Below are positions 1 to 5,701 of a stretch of 23,456 nucleotides of DNA, piece after piece (position 1 is the first letter of the stretch; every line of letters starts with the position of its first letter). The position numbers were made by a program, and so were the translations under genes. The DNA comes from a virus, in IMG/VR virus record IMGVR_UViG_3300028394_000313, positions 1 to 23,456 of that record. One strand, written 5' to 3'. Below the pieces are notes generated by a model. That model made no database searches and was not told where the DNA came from. It worked only from the letters and a program-made list of their open reading frames with translations.

Positions 1-4
1 CTCA

Positions 5-49
5 ACAAAAAAAAAAGCCCCAGAGCACAGGACAGGGTGCTCTGGGGCT
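5..49 (-). terminator. Rho-independent terminator of the leftmost minus-strand unit
   Basis: A perfect 13-bp stem (16-28 with 37-49, AGCCCCAGAGCAC arm) encloses an 8-base loop. On the minus strand it is followed by an uninterrupted T tract (plus-strand A run 7-16). It lies just downstream of the gene ending at 90. The first nine bases of the window, CTCAACAAA, match the arm of the palindromes found further right, so another boundary element may begin just outside the window. Confidence 0.9.
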
Positions 50-51
50 GG

Positions 52-85
52 TTGGCGTAGAGAAATGAGAAAAACTACGCCAAGT
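52..85 (-). other. Hairpin between last gene and terminator
   Basis: TTGGCGTAG pairs with CTACGCCAA (9 bp) around an A-rich loop. It lies in the short 3' untranslated stretch between the stop at 90 and the terminator. It may protect the 3' end or reinforce termination. It does not share the loop of the intercistronic hairpin family described elsewhere. Confidence 0.5.
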
Positions 86-89
86 CTAT

Positions 90-296
90 TTAGTTATCTG
101 GGATAGTTCCCTCATTTTCGTTCTGGTCTTGCCACCAGAACTCGTCTTGGAACTCGGTTGTATCTAGAACCTGCCACCAATCTAAATCAAGGTTGCTTTC
201 AGGTTCTCGGGCTATCTCTATCGCTTGCTCTGGTGTGTCTGCCTGAATTGTGGTTTCATACCAGATTGTCGCTTTTTGCTGAACTCTGTATTCCAT
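90..296 (-). CDS. Small acidic Trp-rich protein, unknown function
   Basis: This gene encodes 68 residues. The reading frame could start 5 codons earlier, but I place the start at 296 because GTGAGGA lies about 6 bases upstream of that ATG and the upstream gene stops at 298-300, one base away. This implies translational coupling. The protein has a beta-rich N-terminal half (EYRVQQKATIWYETTIQAD), then a short helix containing EQAIEIARE, and an acidic tail with WW pairs. This beta-beta-alpha pattern with an E/Q-AI-E-A helix is common in very small phage proteins. I do not recognise a named family and assign no function. It is the last gene of the four-gene unit 913-90. Confidence 0.75.
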   Translation of the reverse strand: MEYRVQQKATIWYETTIQADTPEQAIEIAREPESNLDLDWWQVLDTTEFQDEFWWQDQNENEGTIPDN

Positions 297-297
297 T

Positions 298-420
298 TTA
301 TTCCTCACCATTTATTAGTTGCTCTAAATCAAATAGGGCTTCCTCTGCTGTTGTAGCCCCCTCTTGCCAATCGGTAAAGATTGCCTTGATTGCTGTTGCT
401 TCTTTGTCGTTTAGTTCCAT
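298..420 (-). CDS. 40-residue acidic protein, unknown
   Basis: This is a 40-codon gene that an ORF caller with a 60-residue cutoff would miss. It starts ATG at 420, with a strong GGAGGGG Shine-Dalgarno 5 bases upstream. That ATG overlaps the stop of the preceding gene as TAATG, and its own TAA at 298-300 sits one base before the next ATG. The product begins MELNDKEATAIKAIF and ends LEQLINGEE: a helical acidic miniprotein with one Trp. Spacing and ribosome site support it strongly. The function is unknown. Its size and position suggest an accessory phage protein, which is inference only. Confidence 0.75.
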   Translation of the reverse strand: MELNDKEATAIKAIFTDWQEGATTAEEALFDLEQLINGEE

Positions 421-689
421 TAGAACCCCTCCAATGTTTCTATTAGTCGCTTGTTGTCAGGTGTGGTGCTGTCGGTGATAGCATAACCAGATTGGTTTAT
501 GTTCTCTATGATGTCCCTAACATAGTTTATTAGGAACTTACGATTAGCGAACTCTAAGGTGAATTGAGATTTCAGTTCCTCATCATCACTAAAAATGCGA
601 ACGCTGTCTTTGGTCTGGTCTAGGTGCTTGTTGATGTAGTCCTCAAACACTTCCAACGCTGATACGATAATTGCCTGTTCGGTGTTCAT
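420..689 (-). CDS. Small helical acidic protein, unknown
   Basis: This gene encodes 89 residues. Its ATG at 689 overlaps the TAA of the upstream gene by one base (TAATG), and its own TAA overlaps the next ATG in the same way, so four genes form a tightly coupled chain. The sequence is mostly predicted helix (EQAIIVSALEVFEDYINKHL near the N terminus). It has no Cys, membrane segment or signal peptide. I recognise no family. The overlap pattern and codon integrity make the gene real; the function is unknown. Confidence 0.8.
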   Translation of the reverse strand: MNTEQAIIVSALEVFEDYINKHLDQTKDSVRIFSDDEELKSQFTLEFANRKFLINYVRDIIENINQSGYAITDSTTPDNKRLIETLEGF

Positions 690-913
690 TACTCAACCAC
701 CTCTTCATCACAATTACAATCAGGGTCATTACAGCCTAGTTCTAGATGAGCCTTGCGAGCCTCTTCTATCATTGCGAACACATCATTTAGGGCAGAGCCT
801 AATAGGACAGGTTTGCGTTCTGGCGTGATTTCTTCCATACCCTTATACTCATTACAATCCACACAGGCAATAGTGCCAAGTGGGTATTCTCTATTACAAA
901 ATACACATTTCAT
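689..913 (-). CDS. Zinc-ribbon-like small protein
   Basis: This gene encodes 74 residues. The open frame extends 30 codons further upstream, but that part overlaps the promoter. GAGAGAACC just before the ATG at 913 supports the shorter start. Two CxxC pairs (C3/C6 and C17/C20) are spaced like a zinc ribbon or rubredoxin-like knuckle. A second Cys cluster lies in the acidic C terminus (CNDPDCNCDEE). This suggests a metal-binding protein, possibly binding nucleic acid or a protein partner. It is the first gene of the unit driven by the promoter at 963-991. No specific family is assigned. Confidence 0.78.
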   Translation of the reverse strand: MKCVFCNREYPLGTIACVDCNEYKGMEEITPERKPVLLGSALNDVFAMIEEARKAHLELGCNDPDCNCDEEVVE

Positions 914-962
914 TTGGTTCTCTCTAATCTCATTTAGGTAGCCCTTGTTGGCTACAAGAACA

Positions 963-1013
963 ACATTACCCTTGCCAAAGGATAAATGTGGTTGTGTTAT
1001 CAAATCGTAATGT
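963..1013 (-). promoter_or_regulatory. Promoter and operator of unit 913-90 (copy 5)
   Basis: Read on the minus strand this is CCACAT (986-991), a 17-base spacer and TAATGT (963-968, TAnnnT type). A GTTAT operator pair at 996 and 1007 (plus-strand orientation, second half GTAAT) lies just upstream of the -35. The transcript would begin near 956, followed by a GTAGCC/GGCTAC hairpin (940-957). The geometry is the same as at four other promoters in the left arm, and this copy is the most divergent. Confidence 0.65.
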
Positions 1014-1020
1014 AAGCCCC

Positions 1021-1085
1021 CAACTCAACAAAAAGCAACACGCCACGGTTTATAGGGGATCGGCGTGTTGCTTTTTGTTGAGTTG
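1021..1085. repeat. Boundary palindrome A
   Basis: A perfect 24-bp inverted repeat (1021-1044 with 1062-1085) surrounds a 17-base loop. The arms begin CAACTCAACAAA, as in three other palindromes; the inner part (AAGCAACACGCC) is specific to this copy. It lies between the terminator of one unit and the operator of the next. The A-rich/T-rich arm bases around a GC core could also act as a bidirectional terminator. Confidence 0.9.
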
Positions 1086-1088
1086 GCA

Positions 1089-1129
1089 TAAAAAAAGCCC
1101 CTCAGCCTGTGTGTAGGGCTGAGGGGCTT
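1089..1129 (-). terminator. Terminator of unit 1496-1158
   Basis: A 13-bp stem (1095-1107 with 1117-1129) has a 9-base loop and is followed on the minus strand by a run of Ts. It lies 29 bases after the stop at 1158. Confidence 0.9.
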
Positions 1130-1157
1130 ATTGAGTGTGTCCGACACTCGGCGGGTT

Positions 1158-1496
1158 CTAGTCCTCTGGCTTATCCTGCCAGTTTTCACCGTCAAAGATT
1201 TTACCGTTTTCGGTCAGTTCGTAAATCGCCCCTGAGTAGAGCATTGAGTAATACAGATAGAGGTCATCAATCATCAAGTCCTCAATTCGGTCAGGCAAAT
1301 CTGTCCTCATCTCGTGGAACTTGTTTGAATACTCGTCAGGCAAATCACGCCAAGTCCCGATTATGTCACCTGTGTAAATAGGCAAGGCACTGTCTGCGTA
1401 TTCGTGAGCCAAGTCACTTGGGTGAGTTCTCCCGATAATAAACTCTCGGTTATCCCAGATTTCCTTATTTATTTCTGTTTCTGTGTAAAGGGTCAT
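1158..1496 (-). CDS. Acidic protein, unknown function
   Basis: This gene encodes 112 residues. The frame opens at 1511, but GAGAAGAGAACC lies directly upstream of the ATG at 1496, the same leader wording as at the start at 913, so I use the internal start (MTLYTETEIN). The protein is acidic and Tyr-rich, with a DDLYLYYSMLYSGAIYEL stretch near residues 80-98. It lacks Cys and membrane segments. It is the only gene of its transcription unit, between its own promoter and a strong terminator. No family is recognised. Confidence 0.78.
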   Translation of the reverse strand: MTLYTETEINKEIWDNREFIIGRTHPSDLAHEYADSALPIYTGDIIGTWRDLPDEYSNKFHEMRTDLPDRIEDLMIDDLYLYYSMLYSGAIYELTENGKIFDGENWQDKPED

Positions 1497-1539
1497 TGGT
1501 TCTCTTCTCATTTAGGTTAGCCGTCTTGCTAACAGAACT

Positions 1540-1590
1540 AGACTATTACGAGCAAAGGAGAAAAGTGGTTGCGTTACTAAACTGTTATAA
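1540..1590 (-). promoter_or_regulatory. Promoter and operator of unit 1496-1158 (copy 4)
   Basis: On the minus strand this is CCACTT (1563-1568), a 17-base spacer and TAGTCT (1540-1545). An operator pair GTTAC (1573) and GTTATAA (1584) lies directly upstream, 11 bases apart. A GTTAGC/GGCTAAC-type hairpin (about 1515-1533) follows at the expected transcript start. Confidence 0.72.
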
Positions 1591-1596
1591 ACCGAT

Positions 1597-1669
1597 CCAA
1601 CTCAACAAATAGCCAATAGCCCGATCTTTTATTAGGGGGCTTCGGGCTATTGGCTATTTGTTGAGTTGG
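1597..1669. repeat. Boundary palindrome B
   Basis: A perfect 28-bp inverted repeat (1597-1624 with 1642-1669) has an 18-base-class loop. The arms begin CCAACTCAACAAA and continue with TAGCCAATAGCCCG; the AGCCAATAGCC part is shared with palindrome C. It lies between the terminator of unit 2253-1774 and the operator of the next unit. Confidence 0.9.
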
Positions 1670-1670
1670 C

Positions 1671-1708
1671 AAAAAAATAGCCGGCTGAGGGGAAGGCTCA
1701 GCCGGCTA
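1671..1708 (-). terminator. Terminator of unit 2253-1774
   Basis: A perfect 12-bp stem (TAGCCGGCTGAG, 1678-1689, with 1697-1708) is followed by seven Ts on the minus strand. It directly abuts palindrome B. Confidence 0.9.
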
Positions 1709-1725
1709 ATCTATTTAGTTATGTT

Positions 1726-1750
1726 TGAGCCAGTTTTACAACTTGGCTCA
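1726..1750 (-). promoter_or_regulatory. Covarying hairpin, copy 1 (3' untranslated)
   Basis: The stem TGAGCCA/TGGCTCA carries a loop that reads AGTTGTAAAAC on the minus strand. It belongs to a five-member family (others at 2832, 3212, 4303 and 4655) in which stem bases differ but pairing is kept. Here it follows the only gene of the unit, with no gene before the terminator, so it may mark a site where a downstream gene was lost. Confidence 0.65.
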
Positions 1751-1773
1751 GGTTGTTTTCTTGAGAGAGAAAC

Positions 1774-2253
1774 TTATCTGTTTTCCCAGAATTCAATTTC
1801 TTCATCGGTTGCCAGTCTGAACACCATCCAGCCAGTGCCAGTTGGCTCATCGTGACTTGAACGCCTTACTGTCAAGTCTTTACCATCATACTTGAAGTAG
1901 AGGGTGAAGTCGCCGTTTAGAGATAGTCGCTTGACTATGTCCTTGATGTTAGGCTCAGCGATAGTGTATCCACTACGCCTCTGCCAGCCGATACCGTCTC
2001 CACCAATGTAGAGTTTATCGGTCGCCTCAATGCCATGGTCGCGATTCCAATGTCCTAGCATGTCATACTCAATGTTGCTCATGACATCTTCATAGCAACC
2101 TGAACACCACTCGGCAGGTACAGGGTCGCCTTGTTCATCTAACTCTTCGGACTCAGTCTCATCATTCCACTTGGTGCAGGTGCAGTAATCATTCAACTCA
2201 TAGACTATCTCTGTAATCTCTTCATCTCCGTAATACAAGTTTGAAGCATCCAT
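1774..2253 (-). CDS. Acidic Cys-containing protein, unknown function
   Basis: This gene encodes 159 residues. The frame opens 35 codons upstream, but that part covers the promoter. GAGAAAAGAGAAAAG lies just before the ATG at 2253, giving MDASNLYYGDEE. Cysteines CTC near residue 23 and CSGC near residue 52 could form one metal site. The C-terminal half contains a beta-rich segment (FTLYFKYDGKDLTVRR). It is the sole gene of its unit. I do not recognise a family. Confidence 0.78.
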   Translation of the reverse strand: MDASNLYYGDEEITEIVYELNDYCTCTKWNDETESEELDEQGDPVPAEWCSGCYEDVMSNIEYDMLGHWNRDHGIEATDKLYIGGDGIGWQRRSGYTIAEPNIKDIVKRLSLNGDFTLYFKYDGKDLTVRRSSHDEPTGTGWMVFRLATDEEIEFWENR

Positions 2254-2305
2254 AACTTTTCTCTTTTCTCTCAATGTAATCGCTAGCGTTTTCGCTAACA
2301 AGATA

Positions 2306-2356
2306 AGATTATTATGCTTGCAGGAAGAAAGTGGTTGCGTTATCAAACCGTTATAC
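2306..2356 (-). promoter_or_regulatory. Promoter and operator of unit 2253-1774 (copy 3)
   Basis: On the minus strand this is CCACTT (2329-2334), a 17-base spacer and TAATCT (2306-2311). The operator GTTATCAAACC-GTTATAC begins at 2339 and repeats at 2350. The transcript starts near a GTTAGCG-AAAA-CGCTAG hairpin (about 2280-2298). Confidence 0.72.
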
Positions 2357-2361
2357 AAGCT

Positions 2362-2445
2362 CCCAACTCAACAAAAGCCAATAGCCACACGCCTTATATA
2401 AAAACAACGAAGTTGTTTGTGGCTATTGGCTTTTGTTGAGTCGGG
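2362..2445. repeat. Boundary palindrome C
   Basis: A 28-bp inverted repeat (2362-2389 with 2418-2445) has one mismatch near its outer end. The loop holds its own AACAAC-GAA-GTTGTT hairpin. The outer arm CCAACTCAACAAA is shared with palindromes A and B, and AGCCAATAGCC with B. It is flanked on both sides by GTTAT operators (2339 and 2452). Confidence 0.88.
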
Positions 2446-2451
2446 CGTGTC

Positions 2452-2469
2452 GTTATCAAACTGTTATAA
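2452..2469 (+). promoter_or_regulatory. GTTAT operator without adjacent promoter
   Basis: GTTATCAAACT followed by GTTATAA, 11 bases apart, matches the operator consensus. It lies between a terminator and palindrome C, away from any of the five leftward promoters. Confidence 0.6.
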
Positions 2470-2470
2470 T

Positions 2471-2508
2471 CCCCGAAGGGGCAGGAGGGCTAGGGCAAGC
2501 CCTCCTGC
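2471..2508 (-). terminator. Hairpin terminator of unit 3595-2516
   Basis: A perfect 11-bp stem GCAGGAGGGCT (2481-2491 with 2498-2508) begins 8 bases after the stop at 2516, followed by a small CCCC-GAA-GGGG hairpin. No T tract follows on the minus strand, so termination is likely but less certain than at the other units. Confidence 0.6.
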
Positions 2509-2515
2509 TGTTCAC

Positions 2516-2809
2516 TCAATCTGTGTCTATGAGATAAGTTTTGCCCTGAACTTTTATAACCACTACGCTATCTAGTGGAACAGACCTGAACGCTTGTTTG
2601 TCCAAGTCCCAGACTGGAAGCAAACCCTTTTCAACTGTGTCGTAAGGTAGTTCACCGCCTTTTAGGTGTTCTGCGTAGTTAGTGGTTGCTCGCATTACCC
2701 TAAGTTCTAGGGTTGAACGCTTGATGAATTCAACTGTGAATTCCCTAGCGTTTCCCGGGTGTCTTAGGAATGAGGCGATTTTTTCTTGTGCTAATAGTGT
2801 CGGTTTCAA
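2516..2809 (-). CDS. SH3-barrel-like (DUF2693-like) small phage protein
   Basis: This gene encodes 97 residues. It starts at TTG (2807-2809), with AGAAGGGCAA about 5-8 bases upstream; the gene at 3186 has the same leader and also a TTG start. The middle and end follow a pattern known from small phage proteins annotated as SH3 beta-barrel or DUF2693: FTVEFIKRSTLELRVMRATT, then a YD-T segment, then PVWDLDKQAFRSVPLDSVV. In that family the WDL...RS element precedes the last strand. The role of the family is unknown. It is the third gene of unit 3595-2516, preceded by a covarying hairpin. Confidence 0.75.
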   Translation of the reverse strand: MKPTLLAQEKIASFLRHPGNAREFTVEFIKRSTLELRVMRATTNYAEHLKGGELPYDTVEKGLLPVWDLDKQAFRSVPLDSVVVIKVQGKTYLIDTD

Positions 2810-2831
2810 TTTATTGCCCTTCTGTTTAGTG

Positions 2832-2854
2832 TGAGCAGTTTTAGGACTTGCTCA
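2832..2854 (-). promoter_or_regulatory. Covarying hairpin, copy 2 (intercistronic)
   Basis: Stem TGAGCA/TGCTCA; the minus-strand loop is AGTCCTAAAAC. It lies between the stop at 2866 and the TTG start at 2809, just ahead of the ribosome-binding leader, so it could affect initiation or mRNA processing. Confidence 0.65.
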
Positions 2855-2865
2855 GGTCGCAGGTT

Positions 2866-3186
2866 CTACCAGTCGGTAGTGTTTGTGATTTGCTTGACGT
2901 CTAAGTCTACGTCTAGCGTATCAACATCACCATCGTTGAAATCGAAAGAGATGTCTGCCGATAGATAGTTTAGGTCATCAGCGTTGTAAGTAAGTGGAAC
3001 CTCTACGCTAACTGAGCCCTTGATAACTACATCAAGGCTGATGGTCTTGGTCTTGTCAATTCCCAAGATGTCGCAGATTTCCTCGCTATCTGGACTGTCC
3101 CAGTTTTCGATTAGGTATTGCTTTACCGCTTCGATCTGGTCTTTTATCATTGTGTATCTAATGTGGTTCTCGATTTCTTTTGTCAA
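2866..3186 (-). CDS. Acidic protein with TTG start, unknown
   Basis: This gene encodes 106 residues. It starts at TTG (3184-3186), preceded by AGAAGGGCAACAAA, nearly identical to the leader of the next gene. The N-terminal half is helical (TKEIENHIRYTMIKDQIEAV). The C-terminal half is beta-like and strongly Asp-rich (SFDFNDGDVDTLDVDLDVKQ). It has no Cys and no membrane segment. The Asp-rich tail could bind metal or mimic DNA charge, which is speculation. It is the second gene of unit 3595-2516. Confidence 0.75.
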   Translation of the reverse strand: MTKEIENHIRYTMIKDQIEAVKQYLIENWDSPDSEEICDILGIDKTKTISLDVVIKGSVSVEVPLTYNADDLNYLSADISFDFNDGDVDTLDVDLDVKQITNTTDW

Positions 3187-3211
3187 TTTGTTGCCCTTCT
3201 ATTTTTTAGTG

Positions 3212-3234
3212 TGAGCCTTTTTAGGACTTGCTCA
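3212..3234 (-). promoter_or_regulatory. Covarying hairpin, copy 3 (intercistronic)
   Basis: Stem TGAGC/GCTCA; the minus-strand loop region reads AAGTCCTAAAAAG. It lies between the stop at 3245 and the TTG start at 3186. Confidence 0.6.
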
Positions 3235-3244
3235 GGTCTCAGGT

Positions 3245-3595
3245 TTATCTAGGGCTAACTGTCCCAGATTCGATTCCCTTGATGAATTCATCTAGGGTTG
3301 ACTGAATTAGCATAAGTTCTGCCAGAGTGAAACTACCACGCAATAACTCCGTGTTAGTGTAGTTGCCGTCGCCAAACACGCCAGTGAGATAAGTCCAAAC
3401 ATCTCTGTCTAGGTGGATTTGGTGCTTACCCTCATCTCCGTGCCATACAGACATAGATAGACGGTCAGTTAGGTGAGGACTTTGTATGTCCTCGCCAGCG
3501 ATTATTTGAGTATCGATTTCGCCCTTGACCCAATTGCCGTTTATAGCAACAGGTTCAGCGTTCACCTCTACTTTTAGTTGGTGCTTAGTGTTCAC
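3245..3595 (-). CDS. Unknown protein, first gene of unit
   Basis: This gene encodes 116 residues. It starts at GTG (3593-3595) with AGGAG 7 bases upstream (AGGAGTTCATAGTG), a convincing site. The N-terminal two thirds look beta-rich (VKGEIDTQIIAGE, MSVWHGDEGKHQIHLD) and the C-terminal part is helical (LAELMLIQSTLDEFIKG). There is no Cys or membrane segment. It is the first gene after the promoter at 3664-3692. The family is not recognised. Confidence 0.78.
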   Translation of the reverse strand: MNTKHQLKVEVNAEPVAINGNWVKGEIDTQIIAGEDIQSPHLTDRLSMSVWHGDEGKHQIHLDRDVWTYLTGVFGDGNYTNTELLRGSFTLAELMLIQSTLDEFIKGIESGTVSPR

Positions 3596-3663
3596 TATGA
3601 ACTCCTAATAACTTGTAAGGACTGCCCTTAGAACTTTTGCCCTCTCTTGTTCCTTACAAGATA

Positions 3664-3714
3664 AGACTATTGCGTTCAAAGGAAAAAAGTGGTTGTGTTA
3701 TCAAAGCGTTATAA
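3664..3714 (-). promoter_or_regulatory. Promoter and operator of unit 3595-2516 (copy 2)
   Basis: On the minus strand this is CCACTT (3687-3692), a 17-base spacer and TAGTCT (3664-3669). The operator GTTATCAAAGC-GTTATAA starts at 3697. A CTTGT/ACAAG hairpin (about 3647-3661) lies at the predicted transcript start. Confidence 0.74.
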
Positions 3715-3722
3715 TCTCTCGA

Positions 3723-3780
3723 TCATCACAGTTTGATAACGGCTCTTTATTACAGTTTGATAACATAACAGTTTGATAAC
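3723..3780 (-). promoter_or_regulatory. Three operators in reversed orientation
   Basis: Three copies of GTTATCAAACTGTNAT lie on the minus strand (3723-3740, 3750-3764, 3765-3780). They face the plus-oriented operator at 3697. The outer two are followed by GG and the last two abut. This is the only place where this operator occurs in the opposite orientation. Confidence 0.65.
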
Positions 3781-3783
3781 GGC

Positions 3784-3879
3784 CCGACTCAACAAAGACT
3801 AATGGCAACAAGTTGCCTATTAGCCTTATAATCACAGGCTATACATAGTATATAGCCTAGTGATTATTGTTGAGTTGGC
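3784..3879. repeat. Boundary palindrome D with two inner hairpins
   Basis: The outer arm ACTCAACAA (3787-3795) pairs with TTGTTGAGT (3867-3875) and extends with a wobble and two GC pairs. Inside lie two hairpins: CTAATGGCAAC/GTTGCC-ATTAG (3799-3823) and ATAATCAC-GGCTATA with TATAGCC-GTGATTAT (3828-3867). In single strands this would fold as a three-way junction. The other palindromes are simple stems. Confidence 0.82.
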
Positions 3880-3900
3880 ACGACACGCCCGGGTGACATC

Positions 3901-3918
3901 GTTACACAAATGTTATAA
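3901..3918 (+). promoter_or_regulatory. Degenerate GTTAT operator
   Basis: GTTAC at 3901 and GTTATAA at 3912 keep the 11-base spacing but the middle is ACACAAAT instead of CAAAN. It lies between the terminator of unit 5171-3956 and palindrome D, mirroring the operator at 2452. Confidence 0.45.
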
Positions 3919-3946
3919 AGAGAGGGCTGGTTTCCCAGCCCCCTCT
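3919..3946 (-). terminator. Terminator of unit 5171-3956
   Basis: GGCTGG (3925-3930) pairs with CCAGCC (3935-3940) and flanking AGAG/CTCT extend the stem past a two-base bulge. The minus-strand continuation is only moderately T-rich. It lies 10 bases beyond the stop at 3956. Confidence 0.65.
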
Positions 3947-3955
3947 GTGTTGCTA

Positions 3956-4276
3956 CTAAGACGGCATAAACGGTGAGTCTATTTCATCTAGCAGTGTTTC
4001 TAGTTCCTTAGCCCACTGCTCAGCCTTGACGACCATCAGTAGATACTTGGCTAGTTCCTCGTTGTTGCTAACTAACTTGGTTAGTTCTACGACAGGGCTA
4101 GACCTACGAGGCCTTCTCTGAACATAAGTTCTAGTAGGCTTGTCTAATCCTGTTCCACGCCTTGCCCTCATTACTAACTTTTGATGTTCATTCCAGCAAA
4201 GACGGCATCGGTATGTGCTGGTTAGTGCGTTAGACACTGTAAGATCGTGCCCTTGATTACAGGTTGTGCTTGTCAT
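3956..4276 (-). CDS. Zinc-finger-like basic protein
   Basis: This gene encodes 106 residues. It starts at ATG 4276 behind AAGGAAATGAA. The N terminus carries C6-x3-H10 and C24-x2-C27 (CNQGHDL ... YRCRLCWNE), a pattern seen in short zinc-binding phage proteins and in the zinc knuckle next to some HNH nucleases. A basic segment follows (RARRGTGLDKPTRTYVQRRP), then a helical acidic C terminus. No HNH catalytic residues follow, so nuclease activity is not supported. DNA or RNA binding is plausible. It is the last gene of the unit and is preceded by a covarying hairpin. Confidence 0.78.
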   Translation of the reverse strand: MTSTTCNQGHDLTVSNALTSTYRCRLCWNEHQKLVMRARRGTGLDKPTRTYVQRRPRRSSPVVELTKLVSNNEELAKYLLMVVKAEQWAKELETLLDEIDSPFMPS

Positions 4277-4302
4277 TTCATTTCCTTATCTGTTTGAGTG
4301 AG

Positions 4303-4327
4303 TGAGTCAGTTTAGCCACTTGACTCA
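4303..4327 (-). promoter_or_regulatory. Covarying hairpin, copy 4 (intercistronic)
   Basis: Stem TGAGTCA/TGACTCA, against TGAGCA/TGCTCA in copies 2 and 5, so one added pair is matched on both sides. The minus-strand loop is AGTGGCTAAAC. It lies between the stop at 4338 and the ATG at 4276. Confidence 0.65.
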
Positions 4328-4337
4328 GGTGGTGTTG

Positions 4338-4538
4338 CTAGACTGCTACTAGTGGATAGAACTCAACCCTGATAGTTGGTTGTTCTAGTGTATAACTTAG
4401 GCAAGGCTTACAGACTTTTGCTCCGTCATTTTCGCATTGGACAAACGCTCCAATTGCGGGATGAAAGAACTCAATTGCCTTGACAAAGTGTGTTGCTGTT
4501 GTTTCCTTACCTGATTCTAAACATCTTGCACAGTTCAT
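4338..4538 (-). CDS. Small protein with two CxxC pairs
   Basis: This gene encodes 66 residues. Its ATG at 4538 overlaps the TGA of the upstream 32-codon gene (ATGA), with AAGGGTAAG as the ribosome site. CARC (residues 3-6) and CKPC (about 43-46), plus a single Cys at about 35, suggest one bound zinc ion. The fold is likely a small beta-rich treble-clef or zinc-ribbon type. Function unknown. Confidence 0.78.
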   Translation of the reverse strand: MNCARCLESGKETTATHFVKAIEFFHPAIGAFVQCENDGAKVCKPCLSYTLEQPTIRVEFYPLVAV

Positions 4539-4633
4539 TTCTTACCCTTACTGTCTAACTTGCCGAATAGATAACCAATTGCGAAGGCAATAATCATTTC
4601 CAATAAATCTTGCCCGTTTATTATGTGTGTCAT
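4535..4633 (-). CDS. 32-residue single-pass membrane miniprotein
   Basis: This is a 32-codon gene below usual ORF cutoffs. ATG at 4633 follows AAAGGACAAAA, and its TGA overlaps the next ATG as ATGA. The product begins MTHIINGQDL, contains a hydrophobic helix LLEMIIAFAIGYLFG long enough for one membrane pass, and ends with a Lys-rich tail (KLDSKGKK), so the C terminus would face the cytoplasm. Clear ribosome site, overlap and covarying hairpin upstream support it. Roles such as an inhibitor of host membrane processes are speculation. Confidence 0.72.
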   Translation of the reverse strand: MTHIINGQDLLEMIIAFAIGYLFGKLDSKGKK

Positions 4634-4654
4634 TTTTGTCCTTTGTTTGTAGGG

Positions 4655-4677
4655 TGAGCAGTTTAGGCACTTGCTCA
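4655..4677 (-). promoter_or_regulatory. Covarying hairpin, copy 5 (intercistronic)
   Basis: Stem TGAGCA/TGCTCA; the minus-strand loop is AGTGCCTAAAC. It lies between the stop at 4692 and the miniprotein start at 4633. Confidence 0.65.
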
Positions 4678-4691
4678 GGTGTTGTTGCTAA

Positions 4692-5171
4692 CTAGTTGAT
4701 TAGTCCTAGTTCGTGGTGCTCAAACTCTACTTCAAAGGCATTTGCTTTTAGGCACTTGCCGTCTGTGAGTTCGTGGTCGCATACTGCGTCAGCACAGTCT
4801 GCGTCTTGTGTAAATACCACAAAGGTATCTGCCAAGTGTGTTCGCATTTCACTCCACCTAGTCGGTCCGTAAAGGTCGTATTCCATACCTTTTAGGAATA
4901 CGCCATCGTGATGACCGTTAGTTGCGTAGTTGATACCGTCATACTCGCAAGAGTCAAAGAATGACTGAATGCTCGCAAAGAGATTACCGAATGTTTCCCA
5001 GTATTCTACACGCTGAACGCTAGTAGATGAACCGTTATAACGCCAAGTTTCCTTGCGTTCATTGACATCTTTACGGTCATACCAATACTTGACCAATTCT
5101 AACGGAGTGTCAAGCGTATAAATACGGTCGTCTAACTCGGTAGAATTGACTAACAACGGATTAGTGTCCAT
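4692..5171 (-). CDS. Acidic protein, unknown, first gene of leftward unit
   Basis: This gene encodes 159 residues. ATG at 5171 follows AGGGCAGGCA. The protein is acidic and rich in Tyr, Trp and Asp; the C-terminal part has three Cys with a His (DADCADAVCDHELTDGKC). It has no membrane segment. It is the gene nearest to the divergent control region, so it is probably among the first left-arm genes expressed. I recognise no family and do not assign a function. Confidence 0.78.
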   Translation of the reverse strand: MDTNPLLVNSTELDDRIYTLDTPLELVKYWYDRKDVNERKETWRYNGSSTSVQRVEYWETFGNLFASIQSFFDSCEYDGINYATNGHHDGVFLKGMEYDLYGPTRWSEMRTHLADTFVVFTQDADCADAVCDHELTDGKCLKANAFEVEFEHHELGLIN

Positions 5172-5241
5172 TGCCTGCCCTAACTATCAGGGAACTACTT
5201 GCCTAAGCCGTCTGCCTAAGTCTTGTTTCCCTAACAAGATA

Positions 5242-5292
5242 AGACTATGTCCACCAAAGGCAAAAAGTGGTCGTGTTATCAAAGCGTTATAA
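5242..5292 (-). promoter_or_regulatory. Promoter and operator of unit 5171-3956 (copy 1)
   Basis: On the minus strand this is CCACTT (5265-5270), a 17-base spacer and TAGTCT (5242-5247). The operator GTTATCAAAGC-GTTATAA begins at 5275. A CTTGTT/AACAAG hairpin (5222-5238) lies at the predicted transcript start, giving a leader of about 65 bases before the ATG at 5171. Confidence 0.75.
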
Positions 5293-5463
5293 AGATTATT
5301 TTCGTTATCAAGCCGTAATCTAGATGGTTCTCGTTATCAAATTGTAATAAAGGGGGGGTAGGGTTAGGCGTTATCAAATCGTTATAATCGGGCAGGGCAC
5401 AGAAACGATTGAGGTCCTAGAAAGCTAGGCAGTAGCCTAAAGGGCGGGGATGGCCGGCGCAGC

Positions 5464-5493
5464 TGTTTGGGTGTTTGGGTGTTTGGGTGTTTG
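5464..5493 (+). repeat. 8-bp tandem repeat
   Basis: The unit TGTTTGGG occurs three full times plus six bases. It lies directly upstream of the candidate promoter at 5491-5520 and is G/T-rich on one strand. Confidence 0.9.
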
Positions 5494-5520
5494 TAACTTA
5501 TCGTGCACAATCGTTATAAT
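5491..5520 (+). promoter_or_regulatory. Candidate rightward sigma70-type promoter
   Basis: TTGTAA (5491-5496), an 18-base spacer and TATAAT (5515-5520). The -10 is embedded in a half operator (CGTTATAAT), so operator binding would block it. A transcript from here would have a leader of about 170 bases before the ATG at 5699. Confidence 0.5.
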
Positions 5521-5573
5521 TGATTTCAGGGGTGGTGTGCAAAATTAGTTAAATATTTGATTGTCCTTGTTTC

Positions 5574-5589
5574 AATAGGAATACCTATT
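5574..5589. promoter_or_regulatory. Palindrome in rightward leader
   Basis: AATAGG-AATA-CCTATT forms a 16-bp palindrome. It overlaps the second of two copies of TATTTGATTG (5554-5563 and 5586-5595). It may be a second operator between promoter and first gene; no binding protein is known. Confidence 0.4.
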
Positions 5590-5686
5590 TGATTGGAATA
5601 GCAGTGATAGCTGCGCCGCCCTAAGCTACCATTTTCACAACTCCTGCAAAAATGCTATTAGGGGGTTAAATGTTGTTGTTTTACTT

Positions 5687-5701
5687 TATACTGAAGTAAT
5701 G
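5687..5701 (+). promoter_or_regulatory. -10 element for a leaderless transcript
   Basis: TATACT (5687-5692) ends six bases before the ATG at 5699, the distance expected when transcription starts at or next to the A of the start codon. No Shine-Dalgarno lies at a usable distance. No clear -35 is seen. Leaderless starts are common in Actinobacteria. Confidence 0.5.

Follow-up and report, generated by a model that had tools for sequence, protein, structure and literature searches.

Organization of the locus and kinship of the phage

The window analysed here, 23,456 bp long, is a complete IMG/VR virus record that carries terminase, portal and major capsid genes in its right part and small leftward genes without known function in its left part. 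Its nearest cultured relatives are the Streptomyces phages BRock, LuckySocke, Alone3, GiJojo and pSt2308. Identity to these Borockvirus-type phages reaches 53-54% for the terminase and 69-70% for the major capsid protein, over almost the full protein length, which indicates kinship to Borockvirus-like phages rather than membership of the genus. We infer that the window represents an uncultured, Borockvirus-related phage of actinobacteria. At the DNA level, comparison of the control region with the cultured phages gave no match.

The region at 5293-5698 had been taken in a preliminary description for a divergent control region. We find that this reading is partly supported, and that it missed the coincidence of the region with the terminal-repeat boundary of the cultured relatives.

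Direct-repeat boxes and leftward promoters

Four operators had been proposed at 5275-5387, and four 19-bp boxes do exist there, at 5274-5292, 5303-5321, 5332-5350 and 5369-5387, all on the minus strand. The box sequence, CGTTATCAAATCGTTATAA, present as a consensus copy at 5369-5387, is no palindrome but a direct repeat, GTTATC-N5-GTTATA, with an 11-bp period (6-5-6), a character that the preliminary description had not mentioned. The 12 strong boxes of the window score 23.0-30 by matrix (the weaker upstream box at 5303-5321 scores 23.0) and shuffled windows score at most 15.7, a contrast that is somewhat overstated because the same 12 boxes trained the matrix. Every strong box lies left of 5388, and the structural half has none.

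Five of the boxes precede leftward genes, and each stands exactly 26 nt, in leftward reading, from a TANNNT hexamer. The resulting predicted promoter modules, all on the minus strand, lie at 963-1013 (box 995-1013, TAATGT), 1540-1590 (box 1572-1590, TAGTCT), 2306-2356 (box 2338-2356, TAATCT), 3664-3714 (box 3696-3714, TAGTCT) and 5242-5292 (box 5274-5292, -10 TAGTCT at 5242-5247), the last being the putative promoter of the gene at 4692-5171. In the relative G002, five further boxes keep the same 26-nt distance, with a spacer sequence different from that of the window; in the two phages together, TANNNT is found at +26 of 10 out of 25 boxes. This spacing is rare elsewhere, occurring at 2 of 90 boxes of other viruses among the matches listed, where a -10-like hexamer at +31 in the opposite reading accompanies 27 of the 90 (loci L103-L222), a group that is probably in part a single family. 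Since the box-to-TANNNT distance is fixed at 26 nt, the box centre would fall near -48, a usual place of an OmpR-family activator, and the arrangement thus looks activator-like.

Three more boxes, recognized by box match and matrix score, begin at 3723, 3747 and 3763 (3723-3781) in the opposite orientation, on the plus strand. Another, found by box search at 2451-2469 on the minus strand, occupies the distal side of an inverted repeat and has no attached -10. Large inverted repeats of this kind lie between leftward operons in the window (2360-2450 and 3780-3890) and in L006 (270-380) and L010 (200-300); their outer arms, CCGACTCAACAA and TTGTTGAGTTGG, are conserved, and boxes are found at or within the arms. 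Bidirectional termination is one function they might have, but they may equally represent some different element.

MtrA as the candidate binding protein

In Streptomyces, MtrA recognizes direct repeats of the consensus GTnAcC-n5-GTnAcn, and similar sites are described for mycobacteria and corynebacteria (PMC5650626, PMC6265350, PMC13189361). The phage box fits this consensus and its 11-bp period, with T or C rather than C alone at the fifth base. One count of spacings was set aside as biased, its loci having been selected with the spacing-5 pattern. Its exact form has 19 matches among 84,980 species genomes, 14 of them actinobacterial. It occurs near dnaB and DnaA boxes in Tessaracoccus and, in two mycobacteria and a Nocardia, ahead of a gene that we take, from our own reading of its sequence, to be a probable fatty acid synthase gene. 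In three mycobacteria it lies upstream of ectA and ectB (ectA-ectB); in S. venezuelae, MtrA targets and activates ectABCD (PMC13189361). No OmpR-type domain is encoded in the 12 virus records and two cultured phages that were searched. Given the match to the consensus, the chromosomal sites including ectA-ectB and the lack of a phage OmpR-type domain in the records searched, the host response regulator MtrA is the best candidate for the protein that recognizes the boxes, and another OmpR-family regulator could bind similar repeats. When one mismatch was allowed, the family of one candidate host lineage showed the box in only 5 of its 101 genomes, so the link to this host is thin.

Viral contigs often contain the MtrA-type site, at least 120 having been found, and host MtrA control may be common among actinophages.

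A rigid element beside the boxes

The G-run of the preliminary description is present as G7 at 5352-5358, followed by TAGGGTTA at 5359-5366. Together these form a core, G7TAGGGTTA (5352-5366, plus strand), whose spacing is kept in relatives and which opens a rigid element: the core, a box, GGGC|AGGG, 36 nt and CAGTAGCC. The boxes at 5332-5350 and 5369-5387 flank this core; we refer to their positions as slot A, left of the core, where the box is recognized by match and matrix, and slot B, on its other side. Most of the clade has C7ANNNTTA as the core, and the clade-wide pattern of a C-run, ANNNTTA and CAGTAGCC is matched by at least 120 viral contigs; in the subclade of the window, G7TAGGGTTA replaces the C-run form at almost equal spacing. 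The span from core to CAGTAGCC is 81-85 bp in 116 of the 120 pattern matches listed, where 71-101 was permitted, and the start-to-start distance from core to GGCAGTAGCC is 71-72 nt in the window and its near relatives. The distance from promoter to core, on the other hand, varies from roughly 40 to 105 bp among the window, G002 and L010. At the right of the element, TAGGCAGTAGCCTAAA (5426-5441, plus strand, with CAGTAGCC at 5430-5437) is presumed to be a terminase recognition motif; it is kept in relatives and lies near both repeat ends in the cultured ones. Both TAGGCAGTAGCCTAAA and the fixed-spacing element common to many phages were absent from the preliminary description.

A predicted terminal repeat and its end

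The 221-bp terminal repeat of BRock was defined by double read coverage (PMC7453282). Terminal repeats measure 344 bp in LuckySocke, 221 bp in BRock and 197 bp in both GiJojo and Alone3, and in all four phages the repeat lies inside the divergent gap beside the HNH gene, the place that the region at 5293-5698 occupies in the window. The left repeat end is 36 nt before CAGTAGCC in 4 of 4, and the right end is 37 nt before CAGTAGCC or CAGTATCA. By homology with these ends, the GGGC|AGGG at about 5393/5394, 36 nt before CAGTAGCC, is the predicted packaging cut of the window phage and would mark where a long terminal repeat, spanning at least 1-5393, ends on the right; slot B lies between the core and this cut.

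The window contains the right motif, at 5394-5437; the left repeat end lies outside it, and the left motif is present in G002, G005, G030 and other relatives. About 14 long relatives have an upstream CAGTAGCC with (C)TGG 35-36 nt before it (GGG instead of TGG in the left copy of G017), and their predicted repeats range from 193 bp to 10 kb: 193-216 bp in G018, G032, G037, G038, G040 and G043, about 1.0 kb in G034, 4.6-8.1 kb in G031, G005, G017, G036, G030, G033 and G041, and about 10 kb in G002. No left copy was recognizable in G026 and G035, and no standard right copy in G014. A motif pair 180 bp apart in G011 was considered as a short repeat and ruled out, since the core precedes its first copy. 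Long forms of the repeat are predicted from these motifs, by extension from the short ones.

In the alignment to G002, window positions 9-1609 match the end of that record and position 2399 onward its start; because the window aligns to both ends, 1-5393 would fall within the repeat. The predicted repeat of G002, 11% of its genome, contains all 14 strict boxes of that phage. IMG/VR labels the relatives linear without end repeats, which is expected if assembly collapses the repeat and yet is no proof of it. Comparing the gene left of the repeat in cultured phages with that in window-type phages revealed no homology; G002 and G005 have an AAA+ gene there, next to a VWA gene. These AAA+ (AAA_5) and VWA-domain genes, directly left of the predicted left cut (L083 6168-9682; L085 9396-12903), constitute a MoxR-VWA-like pair in a phage.

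Exchangeable sites in the slots

The slots beside the core hold MtrA-type boxes in the window, G002 and others, LexA sites in L007, L010 and L099, DnaA boxes in L016 and L274, and CRP sites in L230 and L300; the MtrA counts of this survey include loci picked out with an MtrA pattern. With what we take to be the consensus sequences for LexA, DnaA, CRP and PhoP sites, the observed and expected numbers in 75 clusters, loci fetched by the MtrA pattern being excluded and related phages being taken as independent after coarse clustering, were 7 and 0.09 for LexA, 10 and 0.52 for DnaA, 5 and 0.20 for CRP, and 10 and 0.24 for MtrA. PhoP-like sites (2 and 0.01) and CTCAG repeats (5 and 0.08) were likewise enriched in the 75 clusters, both classes having been defined after the data were seen, and a literature search for an assignment of the CTCAG 11-bp repeats to MprA found no paper, so that they were left without an assigned factor. 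Both sides of the core hold a site for the same factor in 14 counts, and 43 of the 75 clusters have no recognized host site. A search of the phages bearing LexA or DnaA sites turned up neither a LexA nor a DnaA protein. In a large subgroup (L260, L266, L305, L311, L344 and others), slot A holds a conserved palindrome, CACCTGA-N7-TCAGGTG.

The rightward side

Several smaller features of the preliminary description are present right of the predicted cut: the tandem repeat is TGTTTGGG in 3.8 copies at 5464-5493 with 100% match, and two copies of TATTTGATTG begin at 5554 and 5586. The reported 16-bp palindrome, AATAGGAATACCTATT at 5574-5589, is not perfectly palindromic but an inverted repeat whose arms enclose a 4-nt loop. 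A promoter whose -10 overlaps a half operator can be written as TTGTAA-18-TATAAT at 5491-5520, over a half site at 5512-5519, but such matches are not above chance (3 found, 3.0 expected in shuffled sequence). The second proposed promoter is probably TATACT at 5687-5692, 6 nt ahead of the ATG at 5699 (5687-5701, plus strand). This -10 hexamer 6-7 nt before the ATG of the first rightward gene recurs in two other phages as CATAAT (L006 1706-1722; L010 1818-1832), and the transcript is probably leaderless. The earlier idea that one protein controls both directions is plausible at the leftward promoters and unsupported for the rightward ones, where the promoter candidate has a single half site and the first gene is preceded by a separate -10, 6 nt from the ATG.

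Discussion

We consider it slightly better than even (roughly 55%) that a long direct terminal repeat has its right boundary in this region, joined to a control element that serves the leftward genes on the repeat, with host MtrA as activator. The leftward, presumably early, genes would be carried on the long terminal repeat. MtrA, a host response regulator of the OmpR family, would bind the 6-5-6 direct repeats, centred near -48 at each leftward promoter and ahead of a TANNNT -10 that lacks a conserved -35 partner, and would activate transcription rather than repress it. If MtrA acts in this way, the repeat genes would follow the MtrAB state of the host. The boxes flanking the G7TAGGGTTA core near the cut would be slots in which the regulator has been swapped for LexA, DnaA or CRP sites in relatives. 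Because the distance from core to cut is fixed and that from promoter to core variable, proteins bound there may also have a direct role at the DNA end.

Taken further, that role could be the only one: the slot sites would work at the DNA end and not in transcription, a host protein bound tightly next to the core acting as a roadblock to fork, polymerase or terminase and so aiding duplication or cutting of the terminal repeat. Besides the rigid spacing, this would account for why LexA, CRP, DnaA and MtrA, which differ in regulatory logic, share the same slots, often with one factor on both sides, and for why the element is kept in phages with short predicted repeats. The boxes of the window, however, also keep a constant spacing to each of the leftward -10 hexamers, well away from any cut, and we know of no packaging system that uses host transcription factors as an end roadblock; we regard this explanation as unlikely, yet the most serious competitor. 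Somewhat less probable still is an ordinary divergent control region in which the boxes are operators of a phage-encoded, stoperator-like repressor. Many asymmetric copies in short intergenic gaps, mostly in one orientation relative to transcription, would suit such a protein, but the exact site also stands at conserved actinobacterial chromosome genes (ectA, dnaB and the probable fatty acid synthase), the slots are swapped for LexA, DnaA and CRP sites, and no OmpR-type protein was found in the near-complete relatives searched, which leaves room for a small phage protein of another kind. In addition, BRock is described as virulent (PMC7453282).

The preliminary description had also seen an iteron-like array fitting a replication origin. 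Direct repeats of 11-bp period, and the DnaA boxes that about ten clusters of relatives have in the same slots, would agree with this. Most relatives, though, have slots without a DnaA box, and because LexA, CRP and MtrA-type sites fill the same slots in others, an origin is not their common denominator. The supposed iterons are promoter boxes spread across the whole leftward block, recurring at promoters over about 10 kb, and along the 88.5 kb of the relative G002 the GC skew reaches no extreme at the control region, its maximum lying near 73 kb and its broad minimum at 26-44 kb. An origin with iterons is therefore very improbable here.

Beyond the promoter-linked terminal repeat that we favour for the window, we tentatively propose, with rather less than even confidence, that a large clade of actinophages keeps a rigid element at the packaging end, with a slot on either side, and that in each lineage these slots dock the host master regulator that suits it (MtrA, LexA, DnaA, CRP, perhaps PhoP and another OmpR-type factor), and that regulator exchange at a fixed place ties end formation or terminal-repeat expression to the chosen host signal. 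If true, phages of uncultured actinobacteria would sense host state via different master regulators in one conserved genome-end slot. The rule that CAGTAGCC lies 35-37 nt from each cut would predict genome ends and repeat lengths in a clade known mostly from metagenomes, and is directly testable on the cultured Streptomyces phages. Host-regulator use and long terminal repeats are already known; a search of the open-access literature returned no report of swappable host-regulator sites at a packaging end, which appear to be new.

Host response-regulator control has a precedent in CtrA in alphaproteobacterial phages (vB_BsubS-Delta and others, PMC9437464), where, as here, sites for a host master regulator are clustered in one part of the genome and read the host state. 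Host phylum and regulator differ, and the abstract of that account describes neither a link to the genome end nor exchange of regulators in fixed slots. Phage GIL01 (PMC4551915) provides the precedent for LexA control, with host LexA boxes in its control region as in the relatives L007, L008 and L010; in the window clade, by contrast, LexA is one of several interchangeable factors and lies beside a predicted packaging end. The Borockvirus phages (BRock, LuckySocke, Alone3, GiJojo and pSt2308) share with the window the divergent gap with an HNH gene on its right, a CAGTAGCC-like motif 36-37 nt from each repeat end and a C-run core ahead of the right end, whereas their repeats are short (197-344 bp) and gene-free, and no MtrA-type boxes were found there. 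Long terminal repeats carry early genes in coliphage T5 and Bacillus phage SPO1, to which the predicted multi-kilobase repeat of the window clade, full of small, separately promoted genes, bears a resemblance. These phages are unrelated, however, and the repeat of the window clade ranges in length from about 0.2 to 10 kb and is marked by host-regulator boxes.
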